DNA from: Ilyonectria destructans
Lineage: Eukaryota; Ascomycota; Sordariomycetes; Hypocreales; Nectriaceae
Assembly (NCBI GenBank): GCA_020740775.1
Contig: JAHEWK010000004.1
Span: 558,001 to 622,000 of the forward strand
Direction of reading: 5' to 3'
Length of the DNA stretch: 64,000 bases
Under the pieces are notes generated by a model. It was not told where the DNA came from. It was given only the letters and a program-made list of their open reading frames with translations, and made no database searches. Both the position numbers and the translations under genes were made by a program. This document shows positions 29,085-37,800 of this stretch, piece after piece. Position 1 is the first letter of the stretch. Every line of letters starts with the position of its first letter.

Positions 29085-29512
29085 AACCCCATATCTCTAA
29101 TCGCATAACCTTTATCGGGTGGCCCAATTCTTCCGGCTGCTGCAACCGACACTGCACCTATCTACCTCAATCATAGCATGAGGCGGATCCTAACGCAATT
29201 AGAGATTGAAGAAGGTATATTGAGCGATTCCGCGGGTCGTCGCAGAGATCGCGGGGTTGATGGTCTTGGAAGATGGTGATGTTCATGGCCATGTGGGTGG
29301 AGCTCTGAGAGAAGCTGTGACCGTCGCTCGCCTCATGGAGAATAGAACTCATGTGAATGATACGAGGCAATGCTTGAGATTTGCGATGTTTCAGCAGCTC
29401 TATTCAATAGATATTTTGCCTTCCTGCTCTTCCTTCCTTGAGATCGAGGCAGTCTCCCAGCACGGTAATTTCGCTAACACTACAACACAACTTCCTGCTC
29501 TACGTGGTGTTC
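29085..29512. other. Intergenic region
   Basis: About 430 bases between two minus-strand genes. Only short ORFs; nothing recognised. Confidence 0.5.
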
Positions 29513-30259
29513 TTATGCGCTTTTCTTGTTACTCTTCTTGCTAGATTTCTTCCGTTGAGAAAGCATGTGTCCATACAGGACATAGAACGCTAGTAAATAC
29601 GTTAGTGAGAGAACAGGTATTTGACACTCAAGTGTTTGTACCTGGAATATAAATAGCCAGTCCAAACCAGAGGAGATATTGGTATACTGGATTTCGGGCT
29701 TGCGAGGGGACAATGACCTTGTAGACAAGCCACGCTTCGGAAAGGATGCCAATTGGGTAAAGAAGGATGAACATATTATATCTTCACCATTTGTTAGCTA
29801 TCATTCATGACCAAATGCAATGCATTCACCATACCTCAACCACAAGAGAGAATTCGGCACACTCCCAGTCCCCTTTTCAACGGCGAAATACGTGTACCTC
29901 ACTACATCGGCCGCATTCCAAGTAACCAGCATGTTAGCGTAAGCCCATTCCCGCGCAGCGACATCGGGATAGTTTCTGGTGATGGCCCAGACGATGGTGT
30001 TGCGACCAGCAACCTGCAGCGCGGTTGTGGCCGGTGAAGCCCTAACCAGCCCAATGACGGCATGGATGATTTCAATGACGGTACACGTCTCAGTCCATCG
30101 CGCGAAGACGTGAAGCTCATCCCAAACGGCCGCGTTCCCGCCGCTGGACCACAGCTGGATTGTGCGGAGAAGGATGACGATTCGCAGAGTGGCTGACAGT
30201 ACGTTGTACAGGGCCAGGTAGGCCGCGGCAGGGGATGCGGGTTCCTTTGAGGGCGCCAT
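29513..30259 (-). CDS. PHS1: Very-long-chain 3-hydroxyacyl-CoA dehydratase, PHS1/HACD family (213 aa)
   Basis: Exons 30259-29835, 29781-29642 and 29589-29513 give 213 residues. The PTPLA/HACD signature is clear: YLALYNVLSATLRIVILLRT near the N-terminus, LEIIHA-type EIIHAVIGLVRASPATTALQ, then EWAYANMLVTWNAADVVRYTYF, containing the conserved catalytic Tyr and Glu region, and LLWLRYNMFILLYPIGILSE. Six membrane segments are expected in the ER, where the enzyme does the third step of fatty-acid elongation (3-hydroxyacyl-CoA to enoyl-CoA). The lysine-rich end KKSSKKSNKKSA fits an ER retrieval tail. The start at 30259 (MAPSKEPASP) is preferred over an upstream in-frame Met at 30364. Confidence 0.92.
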
Positions 30260-31566
30260 CTTAGTTCGCTGAGTCGTCAAATCGCCTGTGCTGCAGGAAT
30301 TTGTTCGGAGGGGAGTGGCATGCGACGCGTGTCGAATAGAGATTTTTGACCTTTTATGGGTCACCGTGAGATGAGATTATCCTTAGCGACGCAATTCGTA
30401 CGGCATTCATCTACCCTAGAGCTAGTCCAGATAGCCGAAACTTCCGTGTTTTGCATGTGATTAACAAAAGTGATAAAACATTTAATGGTGTGAAAAATCG
30501 AAATACAGCTGAAGTCAGATAATACGAGTAGTTTTAGGGACAGCTGTGCTCATGGTTGTAAACACACTACAACAGAAAGACAGAAACAGAAAACAACATA
30601 TTTAGCCTGTAGAACGAGCACTCGCGGGGAATCAATGGAAAGGGAGCCCCTCAGCTGTATCGAGTAGCATCAATCTCGAGTTCGCCAGTTCAAGTTTTGT
30701 GACCATTCTTTATCTCCTATTTATAATAGTCCATTTGGCTGAACAAGTCCTGGTCATTTTATTGCGCGCGCGCTTTGTGATTGTCTCGGTTGGGTAGCTC
30801 CATCGGCGGCGAAATATGTGTTGACATCACCTGGCCCATGCAAGTAGGTTTTGTAATACAGGGTCATCTTAACAAGATCTATATGGAGTGCGGTAGTAAT
30901 CGGGATTTCTGACAGGGTCGCAGTGCCGATGAGCACACTTGAGTCTGAACGACGGTTGGAACTTATGTAGCTGGCCAAGGTGTTACCTAAAGAAGTAACT
31001 CCGCCCAGGGTTGGGCGGAACGTGCTCTTCCCTCCGTTAATTCTATATTCATTGTTTGCAGCGCCTTATTTCTTTAACCCCAGCTGTCACAGCAGCTCAT
31101 ATCGATAGACTTATCCTCCTGTCCGTCAGATGTATGTGGAAGGACTGGATTTAGTGTTCCCAAGCGCCAAATTCAGCACCCCTGCCTGTGGTACATCTTA
31201 ACGCACAGTGGTACGGGTTCAGCGTCAGTAATCTATCATTGGAATTTTGCAAAAATGGGCCAAAAATGGACCAATCGTGGCGCATGCACAGTATGTGCCT
31301 AGTGCAAGTATATCCCCTGTTGCCTCTTAATACTAACAGCAATTGAGCGCCTTGGTATTTAGGTATTAAAACCTAGCCCTATGAACTTTTTCTGGCCGCC
31401 CGCCTCTTTCTTCGGATAGAACATACCATCTAGCAGCATATTCGCATACTATATATAGTATACATTCATAATAGTGGTTGGTTAGTATTCTCCGGCTATC
31501 TGACATTAATAAGAAAGAAATATGATACTATGGTGGTAAATACCAACACGGGTAAACTGAAAACGC
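30260..31566. other. Intergenic region without a recognisable gene
   Basis: Contains minus-strand ORFs at 30754-30978 and 31151-31342 with no resemblance to known proteins. The stretch 31430-31470 is TA-rich (TATATATAGTATAC). Nothing else is seen. Confidence 0.5.
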
Positions 31567-32457
31567 CTAGCTGGCTTTGCTGGCGGCAGGGAAGCCGCCA
31601 GTTGAAAAGTTGATGGGGGCGTTGCTCACTCCAGCCTGTACACCCTGATTGTAATCTCCAAATGTAGACGTGTAGACTACACGGCCTTGATCTTTCCGAG
31701 CATCTACAGCTGCTGCCTGAATCCCCTTGGAAAGTTCTTTGAGCAGCTCGAGAGACTTTCTCAGGGCAAACTTCTCAGCTTCCACCTGACTAGTCGCACT
31801 AGCCTGGTCGAGATCCTCATCTTCATCTTGCGCTGCTAGATGAAGTTCTTCCAACTTGGTGTTCACCTCGTCTAGCTGTTTCGTTGCCGCCGTAATGGCT
31901 GTTGTGATTTCCGTTTCCTTGGTCGATATCATTTGCATCATTGTTTCGGTCACATTCGTCTGCTGAAGGGAACTATACCTATTTCTCCTTGGTATTATTC
32001 TTATTTTCCGGGCTGGTAAGGCAACTTACAATGTCGCAGTACTGACAACCGAAGTAAGCGTTATCTTGCAGTTCTGGAGTTGGGCTGATGTGGACTTGAT
32101 TTGGTCCTGTCTGAACAGGCCAATCATTGTCCGATCCCGCCAAGACAGCTTTCCATCATCACTATGCGTGGTCCAGCGATCGATTGCGGCTTGAAACTTG
32201 CTAGAAGACTTTTTGCATAGCTTCAGCCCAGTCTTCGATTGGGCCACCACAGCCCTGCCCAACGACTCCCACTGTTGATCAGATATGTTTTGAACAGAAG
32301 TGATAGCCTGCTCAATGGTGAGCAGGTCTTCGCGGACTGACACAATATCGCTAGGCGCATTCTTAATGCCCCCAAGGTCATTTCGCAAATGCCGTACGCA
32401 TTGCAACGCTGGGACGGCAATGCCTGCAACGCTTGCTGTAATGCTCAGAGGGTCCAT
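31567..32457 (-). CDS. HeLo-like (fungal STAND N-terminal type) protein with a C-terminal amyloid motif (279 aa); probable NLR effector
   Basis: Exons 32457-32030 and 31978-31567 join as ATL|YSS with matching phase. The N-terminus MDPLSITASVAGIAVPALQC followed by NAPSDIVSVREDLLTIEQAI is the helical HeLo-like/Helo_like_N domain used as a membrane-acting cell-death executor in fungal NLR systems. Residues ~150-235 are heptad-rich coiled coil (TKETEITTAITAATKQLDEV). The last 35 residues contain FGDYNQGVQAGVSNAPIN, nearly the same as FGDWNHGVQVAQNYAPIN at the N-terminus of the divergent NLR. That arrangement (effector motif at the C-end, receptor motif at the N-end) is how amyloid templating couples receptor to effector in known fungal cases. 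Assignment to the sigma-type motif family is from memory. Confidence 0.87.
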
Positions 32458-32630
32458 CGTGAAGAGGGCGGCAATGCGGTGATGGCGAAGAGTTATTCTC
32501 GAGACGCCCGAGAGGGGTCGCTGAGATCAGGCAGCCATCACGTGCAGCTGCAGCCCAAAACTGAGCCTCATCAGCCGGTAATGGGCCATCTCGACACCAC
32601 AGAAACAAAGACCTCATCAACAACTCAAAG
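32458..32630. promoter_or_regulatory. Short divergent promoter between effector and NLR receptor
   Basis: Only 173 bp separate the two start codons (32457 on minus, 32631 on plus), so the genes must share their upstream control region. This is expected for a receptor-effector pair that needs balanced expression. No specific binding site was identified. Confidence 0.7.
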
Positions 32631-35215
32631 ATGTCTACCAGCAACTCCACATCCTTTGGTGACTGGAATCATGGGGTTCAGGTGGCCCAGAACTATGCAC
32701 CGATCAACGCCGAGATTCACGTCCCACTAGGTAAGGATATCTAGTATTTATCAGAGTCGGCTCCGCTGACAGGTCTCCAAAACCATTAGAACCAACCCCG
32801 CAGCCGTTCGCCTCGATTCCTTTCCGTCGTGATCGTGCCTTCGTCGACCGCGGAGACATCCTCAACCAGATCGACAGCCGCTGCTCTGAGTCGGCCGGTC
32901 GTGTTGCTTTGGTCGGCCTCGGCGGCATGGGGTATGTTCAGACGGTGAAACCTCTGATGAATAACGAAACTAACTGGAACAGAAAATCCCAGCTAGCTAT
33001 CGAATTCGCGTATCGAATCGCGGAAACCTCGGCCGATACATGGGTATTCTGGGTTCATGCTACCACGCCCGCTCGAATAGTGGAAGGGTTCAAGACGATT
33101 GCCGACAACGTCAAGCTGCAGGGTCGCAACCAGCCGAAAGCCGACATCCTCCAGCTCGTTTATAACTGGCTATCGAAGGAACAGCATGGCAAATGGCTTA
33201 TGATTCTGGATAGCGCTGACGACTATCACGTATTGTTTGGCGCGAACGAAAATTCGAACAATAGGCGGCCATTAGCGGACTATCTGCCACAGAGCCGGAA
33301 TGGATCTATCGTCCTCACTACACGAAATAAGAGCCTAGCTTTCCGACTGGCTGGCGATTACTCAGACATACTCGATATTGGCCCGATGACACAGAAAGAA
33401 GCTCTGGTGCTCTTGGAGAATAGAGTCGACTCGCTGTCAGATGTCAATATTGCAGCAATTCTCGTGAGGGTGCTTGACCTTATCCCGCTAGCCATCAGCC
33501 AGGCCGCGGCCTACATACGGAAGAATGCGCCGCGCAGCTCTGTCCAGCAGTATTTGGACGAGTTCCGAAAGAGCGAGGAGAAAAGAGCAAGGCTTCTTGG
33601 TCATAAGGCCGGTGACCTACGTCGGGACCTTCGGCAGGATGGAGGCGCGTCAAACGCCATCTTGACGACGTGGCTAGTGACGTTCGACCGTATCCGCTCT
33701 GAACGACCATCGGCTGCAGATCTCCTTTCACTTATGAGCTTCTTCAACCGGCAAGGAATCCCAGAATCGCTCCTCAAGCCCCCGAAAAATACTAGAGATG
33801 TTGTGCAGTTAAGCGGCCCGGAAGAGATGATCGACTCGGAATCGGATAGCTCCAGTGGTTGCGATGCTGACAGCGATTTCGAGGACGATCTAGAGACACT
33901 GAGGGATTACTGCATGATTACATTAGCTGACATGGAGAGTAATAAGGAGAATACTTTCGAGATGCATGGACTCGTGCAGTTATCAACTAGGAGATGGCTG
34001 AAAGCCAACAAGCGCCAGGAGCATTTCCAGAATCAGTATATCACGTTGATGGCTGATTCGTTTCCAACCAGAGACTATAGGAATTGGACGACTTGCCGCA
34101 CACTCTTTGCACATGTGGAAGTAGCAATAGAGTACCGGCTAAAGGAGAACAGTCTCAAAAAGAAGTGGGCCGATCTCTTGCATAATGGAGGATGGTACGC
34201 ATTATTGCAAGGCAGTTACGCCATTGCAGAACAGATGGCTCGCAAAGCAAAAGATACACGCGAGGAGATATTAGGAAACGAGAATGTAGAGACCCTGGCA
34301 AGCTTATCACTATTTGCAAGGGTTCTCTCGTCTAAAGGGTCATATGCAGACGCCGAGAAGCTGTTGGTGCAAGTGATGGAGACTCACAAGACGAAACTAG
34401 GAGCAGATCATCCTGATACGCTAACCAGCATGGCCAATCTTGCGTCAATATACAGGAACCAAGGCCGATGGGAGGAGGCAGAAAAGCTGGAGGTACAAGT
34501 GATGGAGACCTTTAAGATGAAACTGGGAACAGATTATCCTTCTACGCTAACTAGTATGGCTAATCTTGCGTTGATATTTTGGAACCAAGGCCGATGGGAG
34601 GAGGCAGAGAATCTGTTTGTGCAAGTGATAGAGACCTTTAAGACGAAACTAGGAGCAGATCATCCTTCTACACTAACCAGTATGGCCAATCTTGCGTCAA
34701 CATATAGGAACCAAGGCCGATGGGAGGAGGCAGAGAATCTATTTGTGCAAGTAATGGAGACTCGCAAGATGAAACTGGGAGCAGATCATCCTGATACGCT
34801 AACCAGTATGGCCAATCTTGCATTAACATTTTGGAACCAAAGCCGATGGGAGGAGGCAGAGAACCTATTTATACAAGTAATAGAGACTCGCAAGATGAAA
34901 CTAGGAGCAGATCATCCTGATACACTAACCAGCGTGGCCAATCTTGCGTCAACATTTTGGAATCAAGGCCGATGGGAGGAGGCAGAGAAGCTGGAAGTGC
35001 AAGTGATGGAGACAAGCAAAATGAAACTGGGAGTAGATCACCCTGATACGCTGACCAGTATGGCCAATCTTGCTTTTACTTTGAACAGCCAAGGCCGAGA
35101 TGAAGAGGCGTTGGCCTTGATGGAGAAATGTGCCCAAGCGCGGCAACAGGCCCTTGGTGCAAAGCATCCAGATAGTATCTTATCCTTCGCCACTCTGGGG
35201 GCGTGGAGGAATTAG
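32631..35215 (+). CDS. NLR/STAND receptor: amyloid motif, NB-ARC, TPR repeats (824 aa)
   Basis: Exons 32631-32730, 32790-32931 and 32983-35215 give 824 residues. The N-terminus holds FGDWNHGVQVAQNYAPIN, the counterpart of the effector's C-terminal motif. A linker IPFRRDRAFVDRGDIL leads to NB-ARC: P-loop GLGGMGKSQLAIEFAYR (rebuilt across intron 2), Walker B KWLMILDSADD, sensor SIVLTTRNKS, GLPL-like DLIPLAISQAAAYI, and an MHD-like MHGLVQLSTRRWL. From about residue 510 there are roughly eight 42-residue TPR units of the kinesin-light-chain type (ADHPDTLTSMANLA...NQGRWEEAE). Intron 2 (32932-32982) is 51 nt and open in frame, so an unspliced transcript would insert 17 residues into the P-loop. Expected role: ligand sensing by TPRs, then amyloid seeding of the HeLo-like partner. 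Confidence 0.93.
34371..35090 (+). repeat. 126-bp tandem repeats coding for TPR units
   Basis: About six near-identical 126-bp units inside the NLR gene, each spelling a 42-residue TPR with the string AACCAAGGCCGATGGGAGGA. Differences between units cluster in a few codons (e.g. ASIYR/ALIFW/ASTYR/ALTFW; HPDT/YPST/HPST). High internal identity implies recent duplication or gene conversion. Confidence 0.85.
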
Positions 35216-36000
35216 TGTCATTTATCTATAATTGCGCTCTTGCACTTATCGATATATTTAAGAATGACGCTGAGTGGAAAGGTTAGGAATGCATTAGGTA
35301 GCCGCTGTTGAGATGTTTTTGGTTGCTGTTAATAACCACTGCTCTTACACCATGTAAATATGAAAGGGCAACTGTGAGCACAACCACATTAGTCCAAATT
35401 GGCCCTAACTTGAGAAACTTTAGACTTTGGAATACTGACGCTAAACCCGCAGTCCACTGTAGTACTTCGCTACTAATTTTGCCACTAGCGATAATGTCAT
35501 CTGTCTCTTGGGCGTCATTCGCACTGTACCACATCTTCCACCAAAAAATGGACCGCAAGGAATCAACAGATAGAAATACACCAAGATGGACAATACCAGT
35601 ACTCGATCAATAAAATAGACTCACGCGGTGTCAATACGGACATGTTAACACAGCTATGGTAGATGTATAACACCACTGGATTTAAGATAGCCTTGGAAGA
35701 ACTTCTAATTCGCGGCCTTGGTCAAGGACGAAGAATCAAGGAATAGTTAAGTGATCCGGAATGATGAAGAGGTTCATAATTATGTCCTCGCTCATACGGG
35801 TAGTTCTATGTTGCTTCTACACTAGGTGAGTGGATAACTCAAGTTCCCTGATCCGAAATTCTTTATTAGCTACCACAATCCCATTCATCCAAATCCCAGC
35901 TCTGTAACCAAGGGCTTGCTAAATTGCAAGCGAATCGCAATAACACCAAAGCACCTTGTCACCTCGTCGCAAGTCCCTCGAAAAGTATGCTCAAATTTTC
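35216..36000. other. Intergenic region with one possible small membrane ORF
   Basis: A minus-strand 91-codon ORF at 35283-35558 ends with a hydrophobic stretch (WTNVVVLTVALSYLHGVRAV). It has no relative I recognise and could be chance or the end of a decayed gene. Otherwise nothing is seen. Confidence 0.4.
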
Positions 36001-37800
36001 CTAGATACCAACCGACTGCTGAGGCTGGACTGTGTTTTGCACAGCCGTCTTGGAGTCGCTCTTCTCATCCGACTGGTGGCCGCTCGACGCGTCAGCATCG
36101 ATGAGACCAGCATTGCGCTTGCGTCGGATTCGATCATCGATGTATCTGACAATGGCCAGAATAGTACCAAAGGTGAGAACACCAATTCCAATACTGAAAC
36201 CACGGCGATATAGGGGCTTGTCATCAGCTCGGAAGATCTGGGCGCCGTAGATTCCGGCAATGTTGGCACCCATAATAACCCTGTTCAAAGGTGTAAGTAA
36301 TGATCCTGGAAATCAATAGAGGGAAACTCACATTGCCATGGCCAACGCTCGTTCCTCAGAATCGTCGCAGGCCAGCGACATCCATGCAATGTTGAGGGGG
36401 TGAGAGAACGTGCCAAATGTCTGCGTCCAGACAACACCAAAGTATCGAACTCCCCGGAGGTCGATCTCAGTGAAACCGCGGTTGAAGACGTAACCAAGCA
36501 GATGCATGCTAAGTCCAGTAATGACGGTCGGTCCACGCTTGTTGCTAGAAGGTCATTTTGTCAGCGCAGTCCTAGTGTTTCTAGTCATCTAGTGTCTAAC
36601 TCACTATCGATCTGAGACGTAGCTAAAAGCGAAAGACGTTGGGATCTGGAGGAAGAGACCAACGGATGCCATTGCATTGCTCTTCAGGGTTCCGAAGCCA
36701 AAGCTTTTCACAATTGATGGAGAGTAAGTGTCGAAGCCACGCTGAGGTCCGTTGTTGCAGAGGGTAATGAGGAAGTGGATCCACAGACGCCAGTTTGAGA
36801 ACTAAAGCGAGGAGTCAGTACAAGATATGAGGAAGAGAATGGCTAGTTGACATACAGCCTTCTTGAAAGCCGTCAGGCCGATGCGCTTCTTCTTTTTGCC
36901 CTTCATGGGATCATCGAGGAGAACACGAGTCTGGAGAATGTGCAGTTCCCTCTCCGTGAAGAAGGAGATGCGTGGAAGGAAAGTACTGCGGGGGTTCTTG
37001 AAGGAGTCGGGAAGGAGAAATCCGAGGACAAAGCCACTGGCAATGGTGAAGATACCCATGATGGTGAACAGCCAAAACCAGCCGGCTCGTCCTTCAACAC
37101 CACGCATGTGAAGAATTCCGTATGCCAACAGCTTTGAGGAGGCTTGGCCGAACTGGTTGCCAAAGTAGAAGAACATGACGCGCTTCGCAGTCTCCTTTCG
37201 GGTATACCAAGTGGACAGGGTCCAGAGACCACCGGGGATGAAGCCCGACTCGGTAATTCCCAGAAGGAACCGGGTCGCGATGAAAGAACCGTAGCTGTTC
37301 TGGAAGGCCTGGAAGGTGCTGACGGTTCCGAAGAGGAAGAGCTGGAGGGTCAGCCACTTGCCGGGGCCGACGCGGTAGAGAATCATGTTGGAGGGAATCT
37401 CGAAGAGCACGATGCCCAGAGAGAGCATCTGCTGGCCGACATTGAACTGATCTTGGTCGATTCCGACATCTTCCATGAAGTTATCGGTGATGGCGTTGGC
37501 AATGTTGCCTCGATCGAGCTCTGCGACGCGACGAGTTAGACCGAGATATGAGAATGAGCGGGCGATGTGACTTACGCAAGCAGAAGAAGCCGAGGGTCAG
37601 AAGGGGCATGATTATCAAGTCCAGCCTGATTGGTCAGTTGAAGAACGTTGTAATCCGGCTTGTCGGTGCAAAACTTACTTCCGTTTGGCCTTGCGCTCCT
37701 CCTCCCTGCTCCAGTCGGCGCGCAAGTTGAGAGCTTCCTCATCGTCCCTGGGAGGGGAGTATTGAGTCGGGTCCGCCGATTTGGTGTCTAGCTTCGACAT
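36001..37800 (-). CDS. MFS anion:cation symporter, allantoate/nicotinate permease (Dal5/Tna1) type (508 aa, 6 exons)
   Basis: Exons 37800-37679, 37625-37576, 37520-36856, 36801-36605, 36544-36332 and 36280-36001 keep phase throughout. TM1 reads LDLIIMPLLTLGFFCLQLDR, followed by RGNIANAITDNF, IPSNMILYRVGPGKWL, RFLLGITESGFIPGGLWTLS and WYTRKETAKRVMFFYFGN. These are hallmarks of the fungal anion:cation symporter family, which takes up organic acids and amides such as allantoate, nicotinate, pantothenate or biotin. The loop region includes SYVSDRYNKRGPTV, the second-half DRxxxR motif, and the C-terminal half ends in a long hydrophilic tail. The start at MSKLDTK (37800) is favoured; an in-frame upstream Met at 37863 would add 21 residues. 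Substrate unknown. Confidence 0.92.

Follow-up and report, generated by a model that had tools for sequence, protein, structure and literature searches.

What are the two adjacent genes that lie head to head at positions 31567 to 35215 of the window from the soil fungus Ilyonectria destructans (the whole stretch of 64,000 nucleotides analysed here)? A sequence-only reading had proposed a receptor-effector cell-death module whose two proteins share an amyloid-type motif. Comparison of the sequences supports that proposal and points to the PP type, one of those it had listed: with a probability of about 0.92, the pair appears to be a HELLP/PNT1 amyloid signalosome. The HELLP/PNT1 system is already described, and the I. 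destructans pair is a further example of it, not a new kind; searching the literature for it in Ilyonectria turned up nothing relevant.

The start codons are at 32457 (minus strand) and 32631 (plus strand), separated by the 173 bp that had been claimed, and the shared intergenic region (32458..32630) is presumed to be a two-way promoter. The HELLP-type effector gene (31567..32457, minus strand) encodes a protein that matches public protein P0002 over its whole length, identical at 279/279 amino acids. Exon 1 (32457-32030) and exon 2 (31978-31567, ending with the stop codon) are separated by a 51-nt intron (32029-31979); an alternative acceptor 6 nt further on is likewise in frame and would give 277 aa. 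The N-terminal HELL (HeLo-like) domain (aa 1-142; 32030..32457) is a predicted helical bundle (pLDDT 86), and Pfam PF17111 (now PigL_N; Helo_like_N is the older name, as in the available part of PMC9815663) matches aa 1-221 with 63.6 bits against a cut-off of 27.2. In the predicted model it is followed by two long helices that form the linker (aa 154-194 and 199-238; 31693..31947), and a single copy of the PP (RHIM-like) motif, recognized by pattern and motif models, lies at aa 249-266 (31609..31662). HeLo (PF14479) gave no Pfam match in the effector at E <= 1, Foldseek gave none at E <= 0.001 with either of the two predicted models, and in structure comparison MLKL was level with unrelated helical bundles. 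The best solved-structure sequence match, a myosin VI fragment (E 0.025), was set aside as coiled-coil noise.

The PNT1-type receptor gene (32631..35215, plus strand; 824 aa) has exons at 32631-32730, 32790-32931 and 32983-35215, the last ending with the stop codon, and introns at 32731-32789 and 32932-32982; the model is identical to public P0063, marked partial, over all 663 aa of the latter. The second intron (51 nt) has no in-frame stop and interrupts the codons of the P-loop (aa 76-83); the P-loop GLGGMGKS arises only upon its removal. An unspliced message retaining it would still have an open frame, with the P-loop broken. By Pfam and the motif models, the protein consists of a PP (RHIM-like) motif (aa 9-26; 32655..32708), an NB-ARC domain (aa 66-277; 32885..33571; PF00931, 34.7 bits, cut-off 23.5) and a TPR array (34355..35073), the last a 126-bp tandem repeat in 5.7 copies with 84% matches, in which Pfam TPR_10 finds eight stretches. 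A serine-rich acidic stretch (33821-33895) lies between NB-ARC and TPR.

The TPR sensor and the coiled-coil linker had been offered as a possibly less described variant. Neither suggestion is supported: the combination of NB-ARC and TPR is what the name PNT1 denotes, according to the available text of PMC12881547, and the alignment of the family, with the HELLP orthologue P0033 from Podospora among its members, takes in the linker as well. Judged by such sequence comparisons, both features are usual for the family.

The two peptides on which the proposal was built, FGDYNQGVQAGVSNAPIN and FGDWNHGVQVAQNYAPIN, can both be found where described, in the C-terminal end of the minus-strand product and the N-terminal end of the plus-strand one, although they share 11 of 18 residues without gaps on recount rather than 12. 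When both whole proteins were shuffled and the best 18-residue match anywhere was taken, 11 identities were reached once in 2000 shuffles; the real match sits at the two ends where it would be expected. Motif models built exclusively from other species' sequences, omitting those of the window and of Clonostachys, recognized the opposite partner among the 2041 window ORFs: a model from 42 effector motifs found the receptor motif (E = 1.2e-4; next unrelated match 0.36), and one from 67 receptor motifs found the effector motif (E = 7.9e-8; next unrelated match 2) and the receptor's own (E = 3.1e-15).

The cores, NQGVQAG in the effector and NHGVQVA in the receptor, fit the PP signature NxGxQxGxN and the RHIM-like GxQxG (as given in the available parts of PMC9815663 and PMC5485727), except that A replaces the second core G, the last G of NxGxQxG, in the receptor. 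Of 63 core-bearing receptors, 7 have A or V at this position, among them that of I. destructans (A) and both from Clonostachys (V). Across the 32 aligned effectors this G is invariant, as are the F, the other core G, the Q and the last G of the motif. The profile search that had been suggested as a check was borne out in part: Pfam Ses_B exceeds its cut-off on the motif of P0013, an effector from Fusarium, and likewise on the related receptors P0086 and P0101, reaches E <= 10 in 16 of the 32 aligned effectors, and our own models detect both window motifs, but Ses_B has no match in either window protein.

Are the two genes found together in other species? Protein searches gave 61 effector relatives, 43 of them with the exact core at the matching end (the other 18 include truncated models and models with a changed residue), and 956 receptor relatives, with the core ahead of the P-loop in 63 of the 120 listed. 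Equal size of each cluster's longest contig served as a proxy for pairing, and since only those 120 receptor matches could be compared the resulting numbers are lower bounds: at least 18 of the 61 effectors could be matched to one particular receptor, 6 of these 18 with consecutive locus tags, and two further effectors could each be matched to one of three receptors. By this proxy, co-occurrence is seen in at least those 18 cases; for at least one receptor with a PP motif, P0087 of Neonectria punicea, no partner appears among the 61 effector matches. The available part of PMC9815663 gives 296 PP receptors from published surveys, 37 of them with a matching neighbour.

Co-variation of the two motifs, another predicted property, was likewise confirmed at one level and not at another. 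It was evaluated in 17 of the 18 pairs, leaving out the one whose effector model ends before the motif. Mean identity within true pairs is 10.8/18, which none of 10,000 shuffles reaches, against 9.3 with partners shuffled; with shuffling confined to clades, the shuffled mean rises to 10.5 and the difference is no longer significant (p = 0.08, or 0.07 by BLOSUM score). Own and other partners are practically equal in Hypocreales (11.0 and 10.95), while in the five Sordariales pairs own partners are the more similar (10.2 and 9.1). Given the equality within Hypocreales and the within-clade p values, the agreement is placed at the level of fungal orders, where it is clear from the sequences.

Within the I. 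destructans genome, one full effector copy and two weak HELL-like matches were found, and the receptor NB-ARC region has 69 matches. Among 34 fetched loci, not all of them whole genes, the motif models find the motif only at those covering the pair; close PNT1-like receptors (loci L018-L028) and a wider set (L029-L034) gave no PP match with these models. One looser regular-expression match each in L016 and L025 is attributed to chance, the motif models giving no support. Two divergent pairs of PNT1-like receptors lacking the PP motif were seen on contigs C40 and C8 (L018-L027, L029, L030). A strict PP-pattern scan of the genome, run once, gave five matches, two of them the pair itself; the other three were rejected as a third PP gene, as their frames are broken by stops nearby or no gene is supported there.

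By analogy with experiments in Podospora anserina, the pair may act as follows. The TPR array of the receptor would sense a ligand and the NB-ARC/TPR protein would oligomerize; its clustered N-terminal PP motifs could then adopt a RHIM-like amyloid fold, which would serve as the template for the PP motif at the C-terminus of the neighboring HELL protein to fold likewise; and the HELL effector would move to the plasma membrane and kill the fungal cell. In P. anserina, PNT1(1-31) forms prions and converts HELLP, which is thereby sent to the membrane, and cell death accompanies this (available text of PMC7885112); amyloid formation and killing by the I. destructans pair are inferred from those experiments.

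Three other explanations were weighed. The one that survives best, although improbable, is that the module descends from HELLP/PNT1 and has lost signaling, drift of the receptor motif having ended templating and left the two genes as relics or with another role. The second core G, kept in every aligned effector and replaced in the window receptor and a few others, speaks for this; on the other hand, both reading frames are intact and their splice sites consistent, the same change occurs in other intact receptors, and the receptor motif still scores strongly against the receptor-trained model. It is more doubtful still that the shared peptide serves to dock one protein onto another with no amyloid involved: the structure of PP amyloid was unsolved when PMC7885112 was written, to go by the available text, yet the same text describes fibril formation in vitro by the P. 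anserina HELLP PP motif, and transmissible prions formed by the PP motifs of two other species. Chance resemblance between unrelated neighbors, for which only the shortness of the motif (18 residues) speaks, is very improbable given the shuffling result and the recurrence of the same pairing in other species, and we regard it as already refuted by the cross-trained matches. If the pair is indeed a HELLP/PNT1 signalosome, PP signaling as tested in Sordariales would extend to a plant-associated species of Hypocreales, and effector-receptor pairs from Fusarium, Clonostachys and Ilyonectria would be gained for cross-seeding tests.

How did I. destructans come to have this signalosome? Ilyonectria and Fusarium belong to Nectriaceae, Clonostachys to Bionectriaceae and Trichoderma to Hypocreaceae. 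In the effector tree (30 sequences, from the 32 of 61 relatives that were aligned), Ilyonectria groups with Clonostachys (support 99/96), Trichoderma austrokoningii comes next, and Fusarium stands apart; in the receptor tree (34 of the 120 listed), Ilyonectria and Clonostachys group with support 100/100, again with Fusarium apart. Forcing Ilyonectria together with Fusarium, a constraint chosen after the first tree had been seen, is rejected for the effector (24 sequences, p-AU 0.0045) and not for the receptor (26 sequences, p-AU 0.09). At a distance of about 20 kb, a CAS1-domain gene tracks the family: in the 120 matches listed out of 595, identity is 80% for Neonectria, 77% for Dactylonectria and <=67% for Fusarium. 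No protein named Clonostachys is among these 120, and the tree of the CAS1-domain gene has no Clonostachys row. Its protein cluster has 11 members, that of the effector 1. None of the 61 effector matches bears the name of I. robusta, Dactylonectria or Neonectria, genera that are present among the CAS1 matches.

One possibility, which we hold tentatively and at somewhat less than even odds, is that the two-gene signalosome moved between families, the I. destructans copy deriving from, or having been recently exchanged with, Clonostachys/Trichoderma lineages, and that linked to this the receptor motif lost its second core G while the effector kept its own. No insertion marks are seen: there are no inverted repeats in 29500-36500, the sole direct repeat there is the TPR array, and GC content has no sharp step at the pair. 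The other reading is that old duplicates followed by loss, or balanced polymorphism, account for the grouping with Clonostachys. If transfer did occur, amyloid-coupled death or immune modules would spread as portable two-gene cassettes; and a receptor motif without the second core G, facing an effector motif that has it, would make templating one-sided.

Among known systems, HELLP/PNT1 of P. anserina is the closest. The P. pseudocomata protein P0033 contains ITATNDQ, HESR and TFGRRG, peptides of published hellp primers, and differs by one residue from the hellp 214 primer peptide; in P0140, from the same species, MSDSYRFG from the pnt1 primer is present, as is the NTF stretch from the reverse primer (primers as in the available text of PMC7885112). 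Identity to P0033 is 51% for the window effector, across 97% of its length; for the window receptor, identity to P0140 is 59% over 893 columns. As far as that text describes the P. anserina genes, both systems consist of adjacent genes for a HELL effector with a C-terminal PP motif and an NB-ARC/TPR receptor with an N-terminal PP motif and tandem TPR repeats. The effector intron starts at coding nt 429 in both (51 bp here, 47 bp there). The first of the two introns of the window receptor is at nt 101, the single intron of P. anserina PNT1 at nt 95. Assignment of the pair to HELLP/PNT1 rests on the primer-peptide orthologues, these identities and the intron positions; the A at the second core G sets the window receptor motif apart. 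The HELLP/SBP/PNT1 cluster of Chaetomium globosum likewise has the PP motif, a HELL effector and an NB-ARC/TPR receptor (available parts of PMC5485727 and PMC7885112), along with a third gene; none was found for the window pair in the one strict PP-pattern search.

More distant systems have parts of the same logic. HET-S/NWD2 (HRAM) of P. anserina also combines an adjacent effector and NLR with motifs at matching ends. In HET-s a 21-aa motif occurs twice; the window effector has one PP copy and a HELL domain (PF17111), so that neither the HeLo domain nor the duplicated 21-aa HRAM that define HET-S/NWD2 is found in the pair. PUASM, described in the available part of PMC9815663 by the pattern FxGxGxQxxGxGxF and a PNP_UDP effector, fits in neither respect: the pattern, compared by eye, differs, and Pfam finds no PNP_UDP domain in either window protein. 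The mammalian RHIM proteins RIP1 and RIP3 have in common with the pair the core G-[IV]-Q-x-[GA], and a helical bundle of the 4HB type, as in MLKL, would be expected for the window effector by analogy. The mammalian pathway differs by a kinase step; the fungal NLR, according to the available text of PMC5485727, templates the executioner directly.
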